Source: Chloroflexota bacterium (GTDB lineage Bacteria; Chloroflexota; UBA11872; VXNJ01). Taken from it: a stretch of 64,000 bases of DNA. The translations under genes and the position numbers were made by a program. The DNA lies in NCBI GenBank assembly GCA_026707405.1, contig JAPOWW010000009.1, forward strand, positions 96,452 through 160,451, read 5' to 3'. Below the pieces are notes generated by a model that did not search any database, had not been told where the DNA came from, and saw only the letters and a list, made by a program, of their open reading frames with translations. Position 1 is the stretch's first letter, and every line of letters begins with the position of its first letter. Shown here one piece after another: positions 12,166-19,845 of this stretch.

Positions 12166-13071
12166 ATGGACCCGATGATCGAAGTTCTTGACACACGCCT
12201 TCTGCGCCTGATTCGGGACGATGCGGAGATCGAACGGATAGCGGGTGGCTTCACATTCACCGAAGGGCCGCTTTGGCGTGGCGACCATCTGCTGTTCAGC
12301 GATATACCAAACAACCGCATCGTGAGATGGGAGGAGGGGCCTGAGGGGCCGTCGGTGAGCACGTTTCGGACGCCGAGCGGGCGCTCGAACGGTCTGACCC
12401 TGGACAAGCAGGGACGCCTGATCGCCTGCGAGCATCAGGGGCGACGCGTATCGATAACGCAGGCGGACGGTTCGGTGGAGCCGCTGGCCGAGTATTACGA
12501 CGGGAAGAGGCTCAACAGTCCGAACGACGTGGCTGTCCGCTCGGACGGGATCGTCTATTTCACCGACCCGCCCTACGGCCTGCTTCCATGGCCGGGCTCG
12601 GGTGACGCCGAAATCCCTAGCGAAATCGGGTTCAACGGACTGTACAGAGTGCTGCTAGATGGAACGGTGGAATTGCTAGCCGATGATTTCGTGAGGCCCA
12701 ATGGACTGGCTTTCAGCGTCGATGAGAGCATCCTGTACGTGGACGATACTCACGCGCGGCACATAAGGGCGTTCGACGTGGCTGCTGACGGGTCGCTGAG
12801 CAACGACCGCGTTTTCTTCACCTACCTCGGCGTCGCCGACGAGCACGGACCGGACGGAATGAAGATCGACGTGGAGGGGAATCTGTGGGTAACCGGTCCG
12901 GGCAGCACGTGGGTGGTGTCGGCGGAAGGCGAGGCGCTGGGCCGGATCCGGCCTCCCGAGCATCCGGCGAATCTGGCGTTTGGCGGCTCTGATTGGAAGA
13001 CGCTGTTCATGACCGCCGACACGAGCGTGTACCGGCTCAGGGTCAATGTGGCCGGGGTCGCCGTTCCGTAA
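12166..13071 (+). CDS. SMP-30/gluconolactonase family protein
   Basis: The 301-residue protein has the six-bladed propeller signatures of SMP-30/gluconolactonase/LRE enzymes: FTFTEGPLW with the metal-binding Glu (E33), LNSPNDVAVRSDG, FVRPNGLAFS and YVDDTHARH, which supply the Asn and Asp metal ligands, and DGMKIDVEGNLWV. Members hydrolyse sugar lactones with a divalent metal. The ATG at 12166 follows AAAGGGATG at a suitable distance. The next gene is a PQQ-type sugar dehydrogenase, whose product would be an aldonolactone, so the pair could oxidise a sugar and open the lactone. However, this protein has no signal peptide while the dehydrogenase is exported, so the link is only suggestive. Confidence 0.9.
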   Translation: MDPMIEVLDTRLLRLIRDDAEIERIAGGFTFTEGPLWRGDHLLFSDIPNNRIVRWEEGPEGPSVSTFRTPSGRSNGLTLDKQGRLIACEHQGRRVSITQADGSVEPLAEYYDGKRLNSPNDVAVRSDGIVYFTDPPYGLLPWPGSGDAEIPSEIGFNGLYRVLLDGTVELLADDFVRPNGLAFSVDESILYVDDTHARHIRAFDVAADGSLSNDRVFFTYLGVADEHGPDGMKIDVEGNLWVTGPGSTWVVSAEGEALGRIRPPEHPANLAFGGSDWKTLFMTADTSVYRLRVNVAGVAVP

Positions 13072-13114
13072 GGAAGTCAGGCAGACGCTGCGCTCGATCA
13101 AGTCCTGCCGTCTG

Positions 13115-14692
13115 ATGAGGAAGCTCCTCTGGGTTCTTGCGTTGGCCGGACTCCTTGTAGTCGCTGCCGCTTGCGAGGAAGGCGGTCGCGAGACAGCGCC
13201 AACACCGCGGGCGGAAGCTTCACAGCCGACGGCGACGGCTCGCGTCGAGACGGAGGCGGTCCCAAGTCCGACGCCGCCGACTCCGACCGCCACTACCGCA
13301 GCCCCTACGACGGTCGCGCCCACTCCGACGCCTACAAGCACGGCCGTTCCCACCGCAGCCGCGCCGCTGGAATACGAAGTCAGTCCGAACGACACGCTGT
13401 CGGAGATCGCCCGCCGCTTTGGAGTTACAACGAGTGAGCTGGCGGAAGCGAACGAGATCGAGAACCCGGATGAAATTCGGGCCGGTGAGGTCTTGAGAAT
13501 CCCGACCTCGCCGGCCGGCGACAGTAGCGCGCCTACGCCTACTCCTTCGCCAACGCCGACCGATGAAGCGGAGGCCAAAGAGGCGGAACAGTCGCCGACT
13601 CCGGCCGCGCCGACGCTGGCGGGAATCGCGGTCGAAAAGGTGGGTGAGGACTTCGAGCAGCCGGTCCAGCTAACCCACGCGGGCGACGGATCGGGGAGGC
13701 TGTTCGTGGTGAGCCGGCAGGGGACGATACAGATCCTGAAAGGCGGCGTAGTACAGCCTGAACCGTTCATGGACATAGGGGATCTGGTTAGCACGGGAGG
13801 GTCGGAGCAGGGACTGCTGGGTCTCGTGTTTCATCCCGATTACCGGAATAACGGACGCCTGTTCGTGAACTACACGGACAGGGACGGGGATACAGTGATC
13901 GCCGAATACCGTGTGGCTTCGAATGATCCAGATCGGGCGGCTCCAGACGCATTCCAAATCGTCCTGGAGTACGAGCAGCCGTACAGAAACCACAACGGCG
14001 GAATGCTTGCGTTCGGTCCGGATGGATATCTGTATATCGGAACGGGCGACGGCGGGAGCGGGGGCGACCCGCAAGGCTACGGGCAGAAACTCTCCACGCT
14101 GCTTGGGAAGATGCTACGGATAGACGTGGACGCCGGTTCGCCTTACGTCGTGCCCGCGGACAACCCGTTCGTCGGCGAAGCGGGGGTTCGGCCGGAGATA
14201 TGGGCTTACGGACTGCGCAACCCGTGGCGCTACTCGTTCGACCGCGAGACGGGCGACCTGTACATCGCCGACGTGGGGCAGAACAGACTGGAGGAGGTGC
14301 ACTTTCAGCCTGCCGCGAGCGCCGGGGGCGAAAACTACGGGTGGAACATCATCGAGGGGTCGCGGTGCTTTGCACCGGGTGAGGGTTGTGACAAGAGCGG
14401 ACTAGTGCTCCCTATTGCGGAGTATGGTCGCGACGACGGCTGCTCGATAACCGGCGGCTACGTCTACAGGGGACAGTCGGAGGCGGCGCTGAATGGGCAC
14501 TACCTTTTCGGGGACTTTTGCAGCGGCCGCATCTGGACGGTAGTGAGATCGGCGGACGGCGTCTGGACCACGACCGAGCGGCTAACGACCGGTCTGAACA
14601 TCAGCTCGTTCGGCGAAGATGAGGATGGAGAGGTCTACTTCCTCGACTATCGCGTCGGATCGGTTTTCCGAATCAAGGCCGTGACCGGATAA
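13115..14692 (+). CDS. LysM lipoprotein fused to PQQ-type soluble sugar dehydrogenase domain
   Basis: The 525-residue protein starts with a lipoprotein signal (LLVVAAAC, lipidated C20) and a Pro/Thr/Ala-rich linker. A LysM domain follows at about 86-130 (YEVSPNDTLSEIARRFGV, then IRAGEVLRIP), then a second low-complexity linker. From about 170 there is an aldose sugar dehydrogenase (YliI/GdhB-like) propeller with EQGLLGLVFHPDY, HNGGMLAFGPDGYLYIGTGD, WAYGLRNPWRYSFD and GGENYGWNIIEG. Such enzymes oxidise sugars with PQQ outside the membrane. LysM binds peptidoglycan, so the enzyme would be held at the wall. The frame is open from 13046, overlapping the lactonase, but ATG 13115 puts the signal peptide at the N terminus. 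No PQQ synthesis genes are in view. Confidence 0.9.
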   Translation: MRKLLWVLALAGLLVVAAACEEGGRETAPTPRAEASQPTATARVETEAVPSPTPPTPTATTAAPTTVAPTPTPTSTAVPTAAAPLEYEVSPNDTLSEIARRFGVTTSELAEANEIENPDEIRAGEVLRIPTSPAGDSSAPTPTPSPTPTDEAEAKEAEQSPTPAAPTLAGIAVEKVGEDFEQPVQLTHAGDGSGRLFVVSRQGTIQILKGGVVQPEPFMDIGDLVSTGGSEQGLLGLVFHPDYRNNGRLFVNYTDRDGDTVIAEYRVASNDPDRAAPDAFQIVLEYEQPYRNHNGGMLAFGPDGYLYIGTGDGGSGGDPQGYGQKLSTLLGKMLRIDVDAGSPYVVPADNPFVGEAGVRPEIWAYGLRNPWRYSFDRETGDLYIADVGQNRLEEVHFQPAASAGGENYGWNIIEGSRCFAPGEGCDKSGLVLPIAEYGRDDGCSITGGYVYRGQSEAALNGHYLFGDFCSGRIWTVVRSADGVWTTTERLTTGLNISSFGEDEDGEVYFLDYRVGSVFRIKAVTG

Positions 14693-14730
14693 CGGAGGTG
14701 TCCGGGGCTCGACTTCCGAATCCGGCGACT

Positions 14731-15081
14731 CTAGTCGGCGCCGATTTCCTCGAACTCCCGGCGGTCGAATCCGGCGATGATCTGTTCGCCAACGACTACG
14801 AGGGGCCGCCGGATCAGGGTTGGGTCTTCGACCATCAACTCGATGAGCTGGTCGTCCGTTAAATCGGCGGTATCGAGCTTGAGCTCCCTGAACTTCCTGG
14901 AGCGCCGGCTGAGGAAATCGCGAACGCTTCGCCCGGCCAACAGACTGCTCAACTCATCCACGGTGAACGGCTGCTTGAAGTAGTTGCGGACCTGGTATTT
15001 GACTCCCCTGCTATCCAGCAGGGCCGTGCCTTTACGGCAGCTCGATCAGCCGGGTTTGATGTATACGAGAGGTTCGCTCAT
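14731..15081 (-). CDS. ArsC/Spx-like thioredoxin-fold selenoprotein (TGA read as Sec)
   Basis: Read through one TGA, the gene encodes 116 residues. ATG at 15081 gives MSEPLVYIKPG, then TGA (15046-15048), then SSCRKGTALLDSRGVKYQVR, and continues in frame to PTLIRRPLVV and a GFD-containing end. This is the ArsC/Spx/YffB family: family members have NPxCxxCRKAxxxL at this point and xPxLIKRPLVV near the end. The TGA is exactly at the first, nucleophilic Cys, leaving a U12-x-x-C15 motif. A SECIS-like hairpin follows. Translation that ignored the TGA would give only a GTG-started 76-residue piece from 14961 without the active site. Product role: a thiol/selenol reductase, possibly arsenate-reductase-like; the substrate is unknown. 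It is the last gene of a minus-strand operon, 23 bases after the D-aminoacylase-like gene. Confidence 0.8.
15006..15023 (-). promoter_or_regulatory. Bacterial SECIS-like hairpin
   Basis: On the coding (minus) strand CCCTGCT, loop GGAT, AGCAGGG form a perfect 7-bp stem. Twenty-two bases separate the TGA from the stem and 29 separate it from the loop. The apical loop starts with two guanosines. These features fit the general bacterial SECIS rules as I know them: a loop about 16-37 bases after UGA, a small loop and a G among its first two positions. The hairpin lies inside the coding sequence, as is normal for bacterial SECIS elements bound by SelB. Confidence 0.7.
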
Positions 15082-15104
15082 AGGGGCTGTGAGACCCTCC
15101 ACGT

Positions 15105-16745
15105 CTATGCGGCTTGGGGGCCGCGAAGCGCTCGACCGGGCAATTCCTTCGATTGCGCACCGTCTCGCACGACGAATCGACCGCCAACGATAACATGCAC
15201 GATACCCTCGGGAAATTGATGCGGGTCGTCGAAGGTGGCGGTGTCGATTATCCGGTCGGGATCGAACACGACCAGATCGGCATCGCGTCCCGGCTCAAGG
15301 AGTCCCTTGGCTTCGAGACCCATTTTCTTGGCTGGAAATCCCGTCATCTTGTGAACGGCTTCTTCGAGCGGGAAGAGGTTTTCGTCGCGGGCGTAATGTC
15401 CCAGGACTCGCGGGAAGGCGCCGTAATACCGCGGATGGGGACGGCCCATCCCAAGCGGCGGTTCGGGCGAGATGGCCGAGCCATCGGAACCGATCATTGC
15501 GGCGGGATGGCGCAGCACGTATCTAACGTCCTCTTCGTCCATAACGAAGTGGATAAGGGCGCCTTGCAATTCTTCTTCGATCAGAATGTCGTGCGCGGCG
15601 GTCTCCGGCGGGACACCTCTCCGGCGCGCTATCTGGGCGACGCTCTTTCCGACTACGTCCGGATTTCCCGACGCCGTCCAGGATATGTAAGTCGAGTCCC
15701 ACTCACGCTGCTCTGATCTCAATTCGGCTTCAAGCCGGTCTCTGACAGCACGGTCTCGCAATCTGGCGAGGATTGCATCGCTACCGCCTTCGTGAGCCCA
15801 TTCGGGTACTAACTGTGTGATGCTGCCACCGCCGGCGGGATACGGATAGACATCGACGGTCACGTCCACGCCGCGGTCCTGGGCGGCTTCGACCATAGCC
15901 AAGGATTCGCGCACGCGCCCCCAGTACGGCCTGCCCGACGCCTTGTGATGGGCTATCTGGACGGCGACACCGGCGCGCTCACCGATCTCGATAGCCTCGG
16001 CGACCGCTCGGAGGAGGCTATGGCCTTCGCCGCGTATGTGGCTGAAATAGACCCCGCCGAACTCAGCCAGGACTTCTGCCAGCTCGACGATCTCGTCCGT
16101 CTCGCTGTAGGAGCTTGGCGGGAAGATAAGCCCGGTCGAAAACCCGAACGCGCCCTCTTCGAGCGACGCGTGGAGCAGCGCCTTCATCTCGTTTAGCTCG
16201 CCGCTGGTGGGATAGCGCTTGTCATAGCCCATCACCGCGGTGCGGATGGGCACATGCCCGACAAGGGCCAGTACATTGACGGCGACGCCGGAGGCGTCGA
16301 GACGGTCGAGGTAGCCGCCCATCGAGTCCCATGACCAGTCGAAGTCGGCGCCCATTGCCAAGTGCAAGCTTGTCGAGACCATGTCGCTCCGATTGAGGTC
16401 GGTGACGGGGGCGGGGCTGAATCCGCAGTTACCGACGATTTCGGTGGTTACGCCTTGACGGACCTTGCTCTGGGCAGCGGGATCGATGAGGAGCGGGAAG
16501 TCGGAATGGCTGTGAGTGTCGATGAAGCCGGGGCAGATAACGAGACCGTCAAGGTCGATAACCGTACGGCCCCTGGAGCCGGGAATCTCACCGACCGCCG
16601 CAATGGTGGACCCGTTGACCGCGACCGCGCCTGAACGCCGGGCGGCTCCCGTACCGTCGAGGATCGTGCAGTTATCGAAAACGATGTCGTAGTCGGCGGA
16701 CGCGTTCACGGGCGTTCTCCCACTGGAGTTACGGTCGAGCGGCAC
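15105..16745 (-). CDS. N-acyl-D-amino-acid deacylase-like amidohydrolase
   Basis: The 546-residue protein is an amidohydrolase-superfamily TIM barrel of the D-aminoacylase/dihydroorotase-like type. It has PGFIDTHSHSD (H78, H80 metal ligands), GNCGFSPAPV with C107 at the position of the metal-bridging Cys of D-aminoacylases, HIRGEG, AHHKASG and IGSDGSA with the catalytic Asp. A C-terminal beta strand segment, GLLEPGRDADLVVFDPD, is typical. Members remove acyl groups from N-acyl-D-amino acids or act on related cyclic imides; the exact substrate is not evident. The start is GTG at 16745, ten bases after the SDR gene's stop, so the two are probably co-transcribed. The selenoprotein gene follows. 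Confidence 0.9.
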   Translation of the reverse strand: MPLDRNSSGRTPVNASADYDIVFDNCTILDGTGAARRSGAVAVNGSTIAAVGEIPGSRGRTVIDLDGLVICPGFIDTHSHSDFPLLIDPAAQSKVRQGVTTEIVGNCGFSPAPVTDLNRSDMVSTSLHLAMGADFDWSWDSMGGYLDRLDASGVAVNVLALVGHVPIRTAVMGYDKRYPTSGELNEMKALLHASLEEGAFGFSTGLIFPPSSYSETDEIVELAEVLAEFGGVYFSHIRGEGHSLLRAVAEAIEIGERAGVAVQIAHHKASGRPYWGRVRESLAMVEAAQDRGVDVTVDVYPYPAGGGSITQLVPEWAHEGGSDAILARLRDRAVRDRLEAELRSEQREWDSTYISWTASGNPDVVGKSVAQIARRRGVPPETAAHDILIEEELQGALIHFVMDEEDVRYVLRHPAAMIGSDGSAISPEPPLGMGRPHPRYYGAFPRVLGHYARDENLFPLEEAVHKMTGFPAKKMGLEAKGLLEPGRDADLVVFDPDRIIDTATFDDPHQFPEGIVHVIVGGRFVVRDGAQSKELPGRALRGPQAA

Positions 16746-16755
16746 TCAGCCTGCG

Positions 16756-17508
16756 TTAGAGGCTCAGAACCTCCTCAAGGGTGCGGGTTGGCCTGATGAT
16801 GATCTCGGTAACGCAGGCCCGAGGCGGCAGGGCGGCGACGAAGAGCACAGCGGCGGCGAGGTCGTCCGGCTGCAGGAAATAAGCTCTCTGCTCGGGGGAG
16901 GGCGGGGCCGGGCGCCTGTCGAGTATGGGAGTCTCGACGTCGCCCGGATAAATCGAGGTTGCCCGAATCCCGTACTGGTGCTCCTCGTCGTTGATGCTCC
17001 CGGTGAGCCCAGCCATACCGAATTTGGAGGCCGAATAAGCCGCGCCCGAAAGCTTGGAGGCGGCCTTACCCGCCAGCGACACGATGTTCACGACGAGGCC
17101 GCCACCGTCCGCCTTCATATGGGGCAAAACCTCACGCACGAAGCTGTAGGCGCCGGTGAGGTTTACGGCGACGATGCGATCCCAGTCCTCGTCAGAAGTC
17201 TCGGACACTCCGCGTTTCGGCGTGTTGGTGCCGGCATTGTTGACGAGAATGTTGGGAACGCCCAACTGTTCGCGGGTGAGCCGCACCACCTCTTTGACCG
17301 CAGCGCGGTCACTTACGTCACCCGGGTAAGCAAGCACCTCTCCGGAGTGCTGTCGTGCTTCGTTCGCCACCTTCTCAAGCTGCTGCTCGCTTCTGGCGAA
17401 GAGGGCGACGTTGGCGCCAGCGGCGGCCAGCGTCATCACTATTCCTCTCCCGATTCCGGTACTTGCCCCGGTAACGATGGCGGTCTTGCCGGTTAGTTCA
17501 CCAGCCAT
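16756..17508 (-). CDS. SDR-family oxidoreductase
   Basis: The 250-residue protein is a classical short-chain dehydrogenase: TGASTGIGRGIVMTL (cofactor motif TGxxxGIG), NNAGTN, the catalytic Ser in IVSLAGKAASK and YSASKFG (Tyr and Lys of YxxxK). Size and motif order match the FabG-like group, which uses NAD(P)H to reduce or oxidise carbonyls or alcohols. A strong ribosome-binding site (AGGAGA, seven bases) precedes the ATG at 17508. It leads the operon with the D-aminoacylase-like hydrolase and the ArsC/Spx-like selenoprotein. Substrate unknown. Confidence 0.93.
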   Translation of the reverse strand: MAGELTGKTAIVTGASTGIGRGIVMTLAAAGANVALFARSEQQLEKVANEARQHSGEVLAYPGDVSDRAAVKEVVRLTREQLGVPNILVNNAGTNTPKRGVSETSDEDWDRIVAVNLTGAYSFVREVLPHMKADGGGLVVNIVSLAGKAASKLSGAAYSASKFGMAGLTGSINDEEHQYGIRATSIYPGDVETPILDRRPAPPSPEQRAYFLQPDDLAAAVLFVAALPPRACVTEIIIRPTRTLEEVLSL

Positions 17509-18132: not shown

Positions 18133-18855
18133 TTGGACTCGAACGGGAATCGCACAACGCTCGACGCTGACCAGGCCGTCAAAATGCCGAGCTCGACCAT
18201 TCAGGACTACCTGCTGGCGATCTACAGCCTGGACTTCGAACAGGTGCACGTAATAGCGGCGCGACTGGCGGAAAAGCTCGAGGTCTCAGCTCCGACCGTC
18301 TCGGTGACGGTAGAGCGGATGGTCAGGGACGGTTACGTGGACGTCGACAGCAACCACACGATCACCTTGACCGAAAAGGGGCGGGCCGTGGGCAGCCGGG
18401 TGGCCCGGCGTCACAGACTGATTGAGCGCTGGTTGAACGACATGCTGGACCTCGACTGGGTGATGCTTCACGACGAGGCGCATCTTCTCGAACACTCCCT
18501 TTCGAGCGCGTTGGAACAGAAAATATCCGAAGCGCTGAATCATCCGGAGACTTGTCCGCACGGGAATCCGATTCCCGGAAACGCCAAGAACTGGTCGTTC
18601 GAAGGCATGAAGCAGCTTTCGGAATCGGAAGCTGGAGAGAAATTGAAAGTAGCGAGAATATCGGAGCTTGCCGAGGACAACGCCGAGATCATGCGCTATC
18701 TGCAACAGAAGAACCTGGTGCCGGACACTTCATTGGAGGTCCAGGAGATCACGCCGTTTGGCCATGTGGTACTCAAGGTAAACGGCGATATGGCGGTCAT
18801 CGACCCGGAAATCGCCGTGTACGTATGGACCAGATCGGCGGCGGCTCCGAATTAG
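18133..18855 (+). CDS. DtxR/MntR-family metal-dependent transcriptional regulator
   Basis: The 240-residue protein has an N-terminal winged helix (TIQDYLLAIYSL to APTVSVTVERMVRDGYV and ITLTEKGR), the metal-binding dimerisation domain (RRHRLIERWLNDML, then HDEAHLLEHSLS and NHPETCPHGNPIP) and a C-terminal FeoA/SH3-like domain from about 165. The three-domain length matches DtxR/IdeR rather than short MntR. The ligand position that is Cys in IdeR (Cys102) reads His in DEAHLLEH, so metal preference (Fe or Mn) cannot be assigned. TTG at 18133 gives 17 residues before the first Met (18184); either start keeps the helix-turn-helix. An ABC exporter follows 72 bases later and may be under its control. 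Confidence 0.9.
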   Translation: MDSNGNRTTLDADQAVKMPSSTIQDYLLAIYSLDFEQVHVIAARLAEKLEVSAPTVSVTVERMVRDGYVDVDSNHTITLTEKGRAVGSRVARRHRLIERWLNDMLDLDWVMLHDEAHLLEHSLSSALEQKISEALNHPETCPHGNPIPGNAKNWSFEGMKQLSESEAGEKLKVARISELAEDNAEIMRYLQQKNLVPDTSLEVQEITPFGHVVLKVNGDMAVIDPEIAVYVWTRSAAAPN

Positions 18856-18927: not shown

Positions 18928-19845
18928 TTGCCGATAGTGGAAGTGCGCGATCTCCGTAAGCACTACGGAGACGTGAAGGCCGTGGACGGCCTTTCGTTCG
19001 AGGTCGAGCCAGGCGAGGTCTTTGGCATGTTAGGCCCCAATGGCGCGGGCAAGAGCACAACGGTCGAGATCGTCGAGGGGCTGCGCGAGATGGACGCCGG
19101 TCACGTGCGAATACTCGACCTCGACCCGCACCGAGACAGGGTGAAAGTCAGAGAATCGATAGGGATTCAGCTTCAATCGGCGTCGCTTTTCGACAAGCTG
19201 ACGGCGCGTGAGCATCTAGCACTCTTCTCTTCTTTCTATTCGCGAACCCGAACCGTGGACGAGCTAATTGAGCTGGTCGATCTGGCGGACAGACAAAACG
19301 CAGTCTCCAAGGAGTTGTCGGGCGGCCAGAGACAACGCCTGTCGTTCGCCCTCGCGATGGTCAACGACCCGGAGGTCGTGTTTCTGGACGAGCCCACGAC
19401 GGGGCTCGACCCGCAGGCGCGAAGGCACATGTGGGACGTGGTCGCGGCGATGGGGAAGGAGGGCAAGACGGTCTTTCTGACAACTCACTACATGGAGGAA
19501 GCCGAGCTGCTGTGCGACCGGATCGCCATAATCGACCACGGCAAGATTATCGCGCTCGACACTCCGGCGCGGCTTATCGAAAGCAATTTTCAGGCGCAGA
19601 CCGTCAGCTTCGATACGGCCCACGGGAGCTTGTCCACAACTGAGCTCGAGTCGCTGTCAGGCGTGACCCAAGCGGTTGCCGACGATGGGCATGTCGAGCT
19701 GTTCACGGCCGACGTAGCCGCAACGATAGGCGCGCTGATGGACTACGCGAGACAGCAAGACGTGCCGATGAGCGATCTGAATATCGGGCAAGCCAATCTG
19801 GAGGACGTGTTTCTGAAATTGACGGGCCGCCGGATACGCGATTGA
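18928..19845 (+). CDS. ABC-2 exporter ATP-binding protein
   Basis: The 305-residue protein is a single ABC ATPase of the DrrA/CcmA type: Walker A LGPNGAGKSTT, Q-loop IGIQLQ, signature ELSGGQRQRLSFALAMV, Walker B VVFLDEPTTGLDPQARR and the H-loop LTTHYMEEAELL. The C-terminal extension with TARLIESN is typical of drug or lipid exporters. It energises the permease encoded by the next gene, with which it shares a four-base TTGA overlap. The start is TTG at 18928. The substrate is unknown; the regulator upstream might tie it to metal status, but this is inference. Confidence 0.93.
   Translation: MPIVEVRDLRKHYGDVKAVDGLSFEVEPGEVFGMLGPNGAGKSTTVEIVEGLREMDAGHVRILDLDPHRDRVKVRESIGIQLQSASLFDKLTAREHLALFSSFYSRTRTVDELIELVDLADRQNAVSKELSGGQRQRLSFALAMVNDPEVVFLDEPTTGLDPQARRHMWDVVAAMGKEGKTVFLTTHYMEEAELLCDRIAIIDHGKIIALDTPARLIESNFQAQTVSFDTAHGSLSTTELESLSGVTQAVADDGHVELFTADVAATIGALMDYARQQDVPMSDLNIGQANLEDVFLKLTGRRIRD

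Follow-up and report, generated by a model that had tools for sequence, protein, structure and literature searches.

UxxC selenoproteins of the ArsC family have already been published, and several are described in the parts of the literature available to us. The 'Arsenate reductase 2' of the Global Ocean Sampling (GOS) data, reported in 2008, has selenocysteine (Sec, U) in a UxxC motif and was counted as 42 Sec forms with 238 Cys homologues (PMC2398784). An 'Arsenate reductase-like protein' with UxxC is found in the later reviews PMC9312934 and PMC13188914; the latter also lists a Sec 'Arsenate reductase' with UxxS (TIGR00014; MBT3519430.1), and PMC1794560 had already included ArsC-like selenoproteins in its counts. 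In the available part of PMC12013277, neither 'ArsC' nor 'arsenate reductase' occurs. A Sec form of Spx was not found in the literature searched, and we claim its unpublished status no further than that. In this study, we analyzed a stretch of 64,000 nucleotides from a Chloroflexota bacterium (contig JAPOWW010000009.1, positions 96,452 to 160,451; hereafter the window), which contains an ArsC/Spx-family gene with one in-frame TGA. An earlier note on this DNA had supposed that such selenoproteins may have been reported before. The first three of these sources confirm this, and the window gene is not a new kind.

The gene lies at 14731..15081 on the minus strand and has 116 codons plus TAG. Read 15081 -> 14731, it is translated as MSEPLVYIKPGUSSCRKG...EEIGAD. 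Its sole internal stop is TGA codon 12 (15046..15048, minus strand), in KPG-U-SSC-RKG, and this codon, the predicted Sec, stands in the catalytic Cys column. Codon 15 (TGC; 15037..15039, minus strand) is the predicted resolving cysteine of the motif U12-S-S-C15 and does not vary across the 26 aligned rows. The earlier note, which named no strand, had described an ArsC/Spx-like frame with a single in-frame TGA, a UxxC motif and intact coding on both sides. All of this was borne out on the minus strand, where the full-length Pfam ArsC profile (PF03960) matched residues 7-113, across the TGA, at 74.9 bits (cut-off 24). The plus strand of 14731-15081 was without any such frame. We infer that the UGA is read as Sec in the cell, since it occupies the active-site Cys position, is followed by a hairpin and stands in a genome with all four Sec genes. 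Thus, UGA 12 is very probably decoded as Sec via SelB and the hairpin, and the product would be a 116-residue thioredoxin-fold UxxC protein that is likely a small selenol/thiol oxidoreductase.

The relatives were then compared at residue 12. Within the window's order, the gene was present in 19 of the 24 genomes, and each match had exactly one TGA. A sample of the phylum gave 66 matches in 63 of the 400 genomes. The UxxC/CxxC site was readable in 46 relatives, with TGA in 41 and Cys (TGC or TGT) in five, so that the stop falls at the redox Cys position as had been proposed. Outside this count are G266, in which the site was not found, four matches set aside by hand (glutaredoxin-like L074 and L075 with U and L076 with C, and the distant paralogue L077), and 15 others with E-values of 4.3e-6 to 7.7e-4, including the short glutaredoxin-like L045 and L046. 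L074 (G113) and L075 (G127) are short glutaredoxin-like frames with an active-site TGA (GUMFC and PGUSSC, respectively), which by eye resemble UXX-star selenoproteins. A related-locus search with a single protein confirmed none, and the same search with an alignment gave three loci, one on a contig of a Chloroflexota metagenome-assembled genome and two in Rhodovulum.

The draft genome of the window (3.13 Mb in 21 contigs, 94.5% complete) was searched for the Sec machinery, as the earlier note had advised. All four genes were present: selA (547 bits), selB (341.6 bits, cut-off 242), selD (408.2 bits) and selC, the tRNA-Sec (74.3 bits, anticodon tca), which shares its contig with the window. The selD gene of this genome (L016, G000:C19:373509-374435) has an in-frame TGA within a GUGCK motif, and SelD is therefore itself likely a selenoprotein. 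Among the relatives, selA was detected in 41 of 41 TGA genomes, and tRNA-Sec, under stricter filters, in 40 of 41 TGA genomes versus two of five Cys-form genomes. One of the Cys forms, in G204 (L054), stands in a genome with neither a selA match nor tRNA-Sec (80% complete), and two members of the same family, G046 (L061) and G083 (L053), have the U form with both. G204 is possibly a Sec-to-Cys change accompanied by loss of the Sec trait, or its 80% complete draft has gaps. In a tree of 45 sequences (L040, cut by N, was omitted), the branches were long and the U/C pattern needed three changes, at least two of them forced. We draw no direction of change between Sec and Cys from the tree, with the exception of G204 as a likely case.

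The predicted bacterial Sec insertion sequence (SECIS) of the window gene is a hairpin at 15006..15023 on the minus strand. It was found just as the earlier note had described it, a perfect 7-bp stem with a GGAU loop (GGAT in the DNA) beginning 22 nt after the TGA and running from 15023 to 15006 (CCCUGCU-GGAU-AGCAGGG), with -11.0 kcal/mol when folded alone. The published limits of the bSECISearch model for such elements are a loop of 3-9 nt, a stem of 4-16 bp, a G in loop positions 1-2, a UGA-to-loop distance of 16-37 nt and an energy of <= -7.5 kcal/mol. The window hairpin lies within all of them, with a loop of 4 nt, G first, a stem of 7 bp and a UGA-to-loop distance of 29 nt. The stability of the surrounding 64-nt stretch was ordinary (z -0.24, reached by 77 of 200 shuffles), and the signal is therefore the local hairpin rather than overall folding. 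We also scanned for exact stems of >=7 bp whose first two loop bases include a G and whose loop lies 16-37 nt beyond a codon. Such stems were found at 366 of 63,920 positions on the minus strand (0.6%) and 601 of 63,920 on the plus strand (0.9%), and after TGAs only at 5 of 766 and 5 of 923, respectively. These frequencies indicate a chance of about 1 in 100 to 200 for the window gene alone. Synonymous-codon shuffles of the window gene gave p = 0.04 for the hairpin. An Rfam scan of 14600-15200 returned two chance matches far under the gathering scores, and none for SECIS.

Hairpins were also found in the relatives. With the column count starting at the first UGA base, 17 TGA genes paired 6/6 at columns 19-24 with 32-37, and 17 other TGA genes, all of family f2, paired 6/6 at columns 16-21 with 27-32. 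None of the five Cys forms paired 6/6 at either of these common places. Pairing of 7/7 at the window's place was seen in the window gene alone. The genes of G317, G369, G389, G364 and G359 had stems of their own with 6-7 pairs (p 0.012-0.30). Three genes with shuffle p of 0.68-0.98, in G211, G225 and G176, do have the 6-pair stem, with a longer loop that was skipped by the loop rule of the scan. In the group of 17 with columns 19-24 and 32-37, there were 14 double-changed cells against a shuffled mean of 3.3, and 0 of 500 shuffles were as high; slid registers in the same test gave 0-3. An earlier covariation count on 13 sequences picked by the stem scan gave 15 such cells (mean 4.3, 0 of 500). 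In synonymous-codon shuffles, 0 of 5 Cys genes reached p <=0.05. In family f2, 2 of 17 did, with the others at 0.052-0.274, and conserved residues may account for much of the f2 stem.

Several observations weigh against the decoding of UGA 12 as Sec through this hairpin to give a redox enzyme. The exact hairpin position of the window is common to no relative, and the family-mate in G020 pairs only 5/7 at this place with a weak -3.8 kcal/mol, which falls short of the published limit. The shuffle test reached p <=0.05 in only 18 of the 41 TGA genes, the window's included. Two of the five covariation measures were unremarkable (pairs with a double change, 53/500; pair types, 122/500), and since the 17 covariation rows had been picked for complete pairing, only the double changes count as evidence. 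One TGA genome, G017 (86% complete), yielded no tRNA-Sec. In addition, selA is common in the phylum, above the cut-off in 320 of the 400 genomes, and the genomes are related. Therefore, the co-occurrence and the Fisher values (p 1e-4 for selA, with counts taken by eye from a table, and 0.0025 for tRNA-Sec, relatedness being ignored in both) are supportive only. Finally, no conserved partner gene indicates the substrate.

The predicted structure of the window protein is a thioredoxin-type fold (predicted local distance difference test score 93.3), and the nearest solved structures belong to the ArsC/Spx/YffB family. On the proposed mechanism, SelB would use the hairpin just 3' of the UGA to place Sec at position 12. 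As judged from the fold, Sec12 would attack an oxidized substrate, Cys15 would resolve the intermediate as a selenenylsulfide, and thioredoxin or glutaredoxin would recycle the enzyme. The substrates are most likely protein or small-molecule disulfides or related oxidized sulfur rather than arsenate, which is our judgement and not a result.

A Sec arsenate reductase, in which Sec12 would attack arsenate and Cys15 or glutaredoxin would help to release arsenite, is the strongest of the alternatives and still an improbable one. The window protein scored 69.1 bits with the arsenate reductase model TIGR00014, under its cut-off of 106.05. Three arginines of R773 ArsC, which we take to be the arsenate-binding residues, were matched by numbering and by eye to the columns of residues 60, 92 and 107. 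Arg was present in 19 of 26 rows at residue 60 and in 26 of 26 at residue 92, but in only 6 of 26 at residue 107.

It is also conceivable, though quite unlikely, that the protein is a Sec regulator of the Spx type, which would bind the RNA polymerase alpha subunit and switch transcription when its Sec-Cys pair is oxidized. The best curated family of the window protein was indeed TIGR01617 (Spx/MgsR subfamily; 81.8 bits, above the cut-off of 75.05), which among ten relatives scanned singly was passed by L048 and L023 and failed by eight. The complex of Spx with alpha was at structure rank 2, tied with rank 1, and the window protein is the sole ArsC-family match in its genome. However, its scores were under the cut-offs of all three Spx-specific models, NF002459 (71.9/123 bits), NF009210 (57.1/159) and NF009885 (39.7/152), and it has 116 residues versus 131-132 in most of the Spx chains listed. 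In an alignment made by eye, Gly52 of Spx, presumably a contact to alpha, falls on Ser52 next to a gap of two residues, in a column with Gly in 6 of 26 rows. We also consider, as a long shot, a Sec Spx stress regulator whose Sec-Cys pair would sense oxidants faster than Cys-Cys, with its SECIS spaced from the UGA in a third way, apart from the two places common in relatives, as if rebuilt within a constrained coding sequence.

Another alternative is that translation starts only at a codon beyond the UGA and yields a shorter protein. The 11 database relatives found (identity 86-96%) were all 69-96 aa long, and the six whose sequences were inspected were fragments that start after the UGA. By default, gene-finding programs end a frame at UGA. 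A product of this kind would lack the active site and the initial strand of the predicted fold, and the UxxC codons are kept in the relatives, so that this reading is very improbable. A sequencing error at the TGA, or a decaying gene, had been judged less likely by the earlier note and is hardly credible: the window does come from a single draft assembly and one base separates TGA from the Cys codons, but the same TGA is found in 41 of 46 relatives at protein identities of 30-50%, with frames intact on both sides and hairpins covarying.

The genes around the selenoprotein gene were also examined. GGAGGG at 15095..15100 (minus strand), 13 nt upstream of the ATG, is a possible ribosome-binding site, judged from its letters. 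Upstream on the same strand, after a 23-nt gap, is an amidohydrolase (15105..16745; Pfam Amidohydro_3, 133.1 bits), the D-aminoacylase-like enzyme of the earlier note. It is possibly co-transcribed with the selenoprotein gene in the window. Further upstream, beyond a 10-nt gap, is a short-chain dehydrogenase (SDR; 16756..17508, minus strand; Pfam adh_short, 186.6 bits). The two had been proposed as operon partners. They do stand in a row with the gene, but they were not found beside the relatives in a tblastn comparison of 51 loci with flanks of up to ~1.5 kb, some of them ended by the contig. In these flanks, the amidohydrolase was found at the window's own locus only and the SDR only beside the glutaredoxin-like L075, the flanks being too short to show an SDR at the distance seen in the window, whose own locus likewise stops short of it. 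In G021, of the same genus, there was an amidohydrolase relative at 38% only, and one further weak match. The two enzymes therefore say little about function.

The open reading frames (ORFs) of 20 loci differed by eye between families. Members of family f2 had neighbours in common, such as an upstream ORF cluster present in 16 genomes. In G020 (L023), which belongs to the same family as the window genome, a DtxR-type regulator and an ABC ATPase are encoded divergently from the gene. These are 53% and 59% identical to the products of window positions 18133-18855 and 18928-19845, respectively, with Pfam support. In the window, the DtxR-type regulator and the ABC ATPase are also divergent to the gene, with the two extra enzymes in between. 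This arrangement suggests that the SDR and the amidohydrolase were likely inserted in the window or lost in G020. On the other side, at 13046-14692, a LysM domain and a glucose/sorbosone dehydrogenase domain are joined in one frame, which is convergent with the selenoprotein gene.

The UxxC selenoprotein of the ArsC/Spx type, earlier known from marine reads, is thus now placed in Sec-equipped draft genomes across many Chloroflexota families. Since the inspected database relatives are fragments and the protein scores under the cut-off of NF041106, annotation likely misses it. The hairpins at three UGA distances within one gene family could be used to test how SECIS elements move within a coding sequence. 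The Spx-type function, if true, would make it a selenium-based transcription switch, that is, a selenoprotein transcription regulator.

Finally, we compared the window protein with the known systems. Like GOS 'Arsenate reductase 2' (cd03032, which we take to be ArsC_Spx), it has an ArsC-family domain with Sec first in UxxC; the GOS protein, as far as the available part of its report shows, is known from short marine reads, and the two are likened by description. The Sec 'Arsenate reductase' with UxxS, in the available description, likewise has an ArsC fold in which Sec stands at the catalytic Cys position, but it has Ser three residues on where the window protein has Cys, and the window protein is under the TIGR00014 cut-off. 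Like Spx (1z3e, 3gfk, 7f75) and TIGR01617, the window protein has its motif at the place of CxxC and a near-identical predicted fold; unlike Spx, it carries Sec where the first Cys would be, falls under the Spx-specific models and is shorter than most of the chains listed. The NCBIfam model NF041106 (ArsC_rel_Se_1), which belongs to the 'Arsenate reductase-like protein' of PMC9312934 and PMC13188914 and is annotated as a (seleno)protein, is likewise of the ArsC family with UxxC. Unlike its members, the window protein scored 38.4 bits against a cut-off of 85, and the best score among the ten relatives scanned singly was 55.4, from the one whose E-value was also the best of all 26 rows. The branch described here falls below the cut-off of this curated selenoprotein model.
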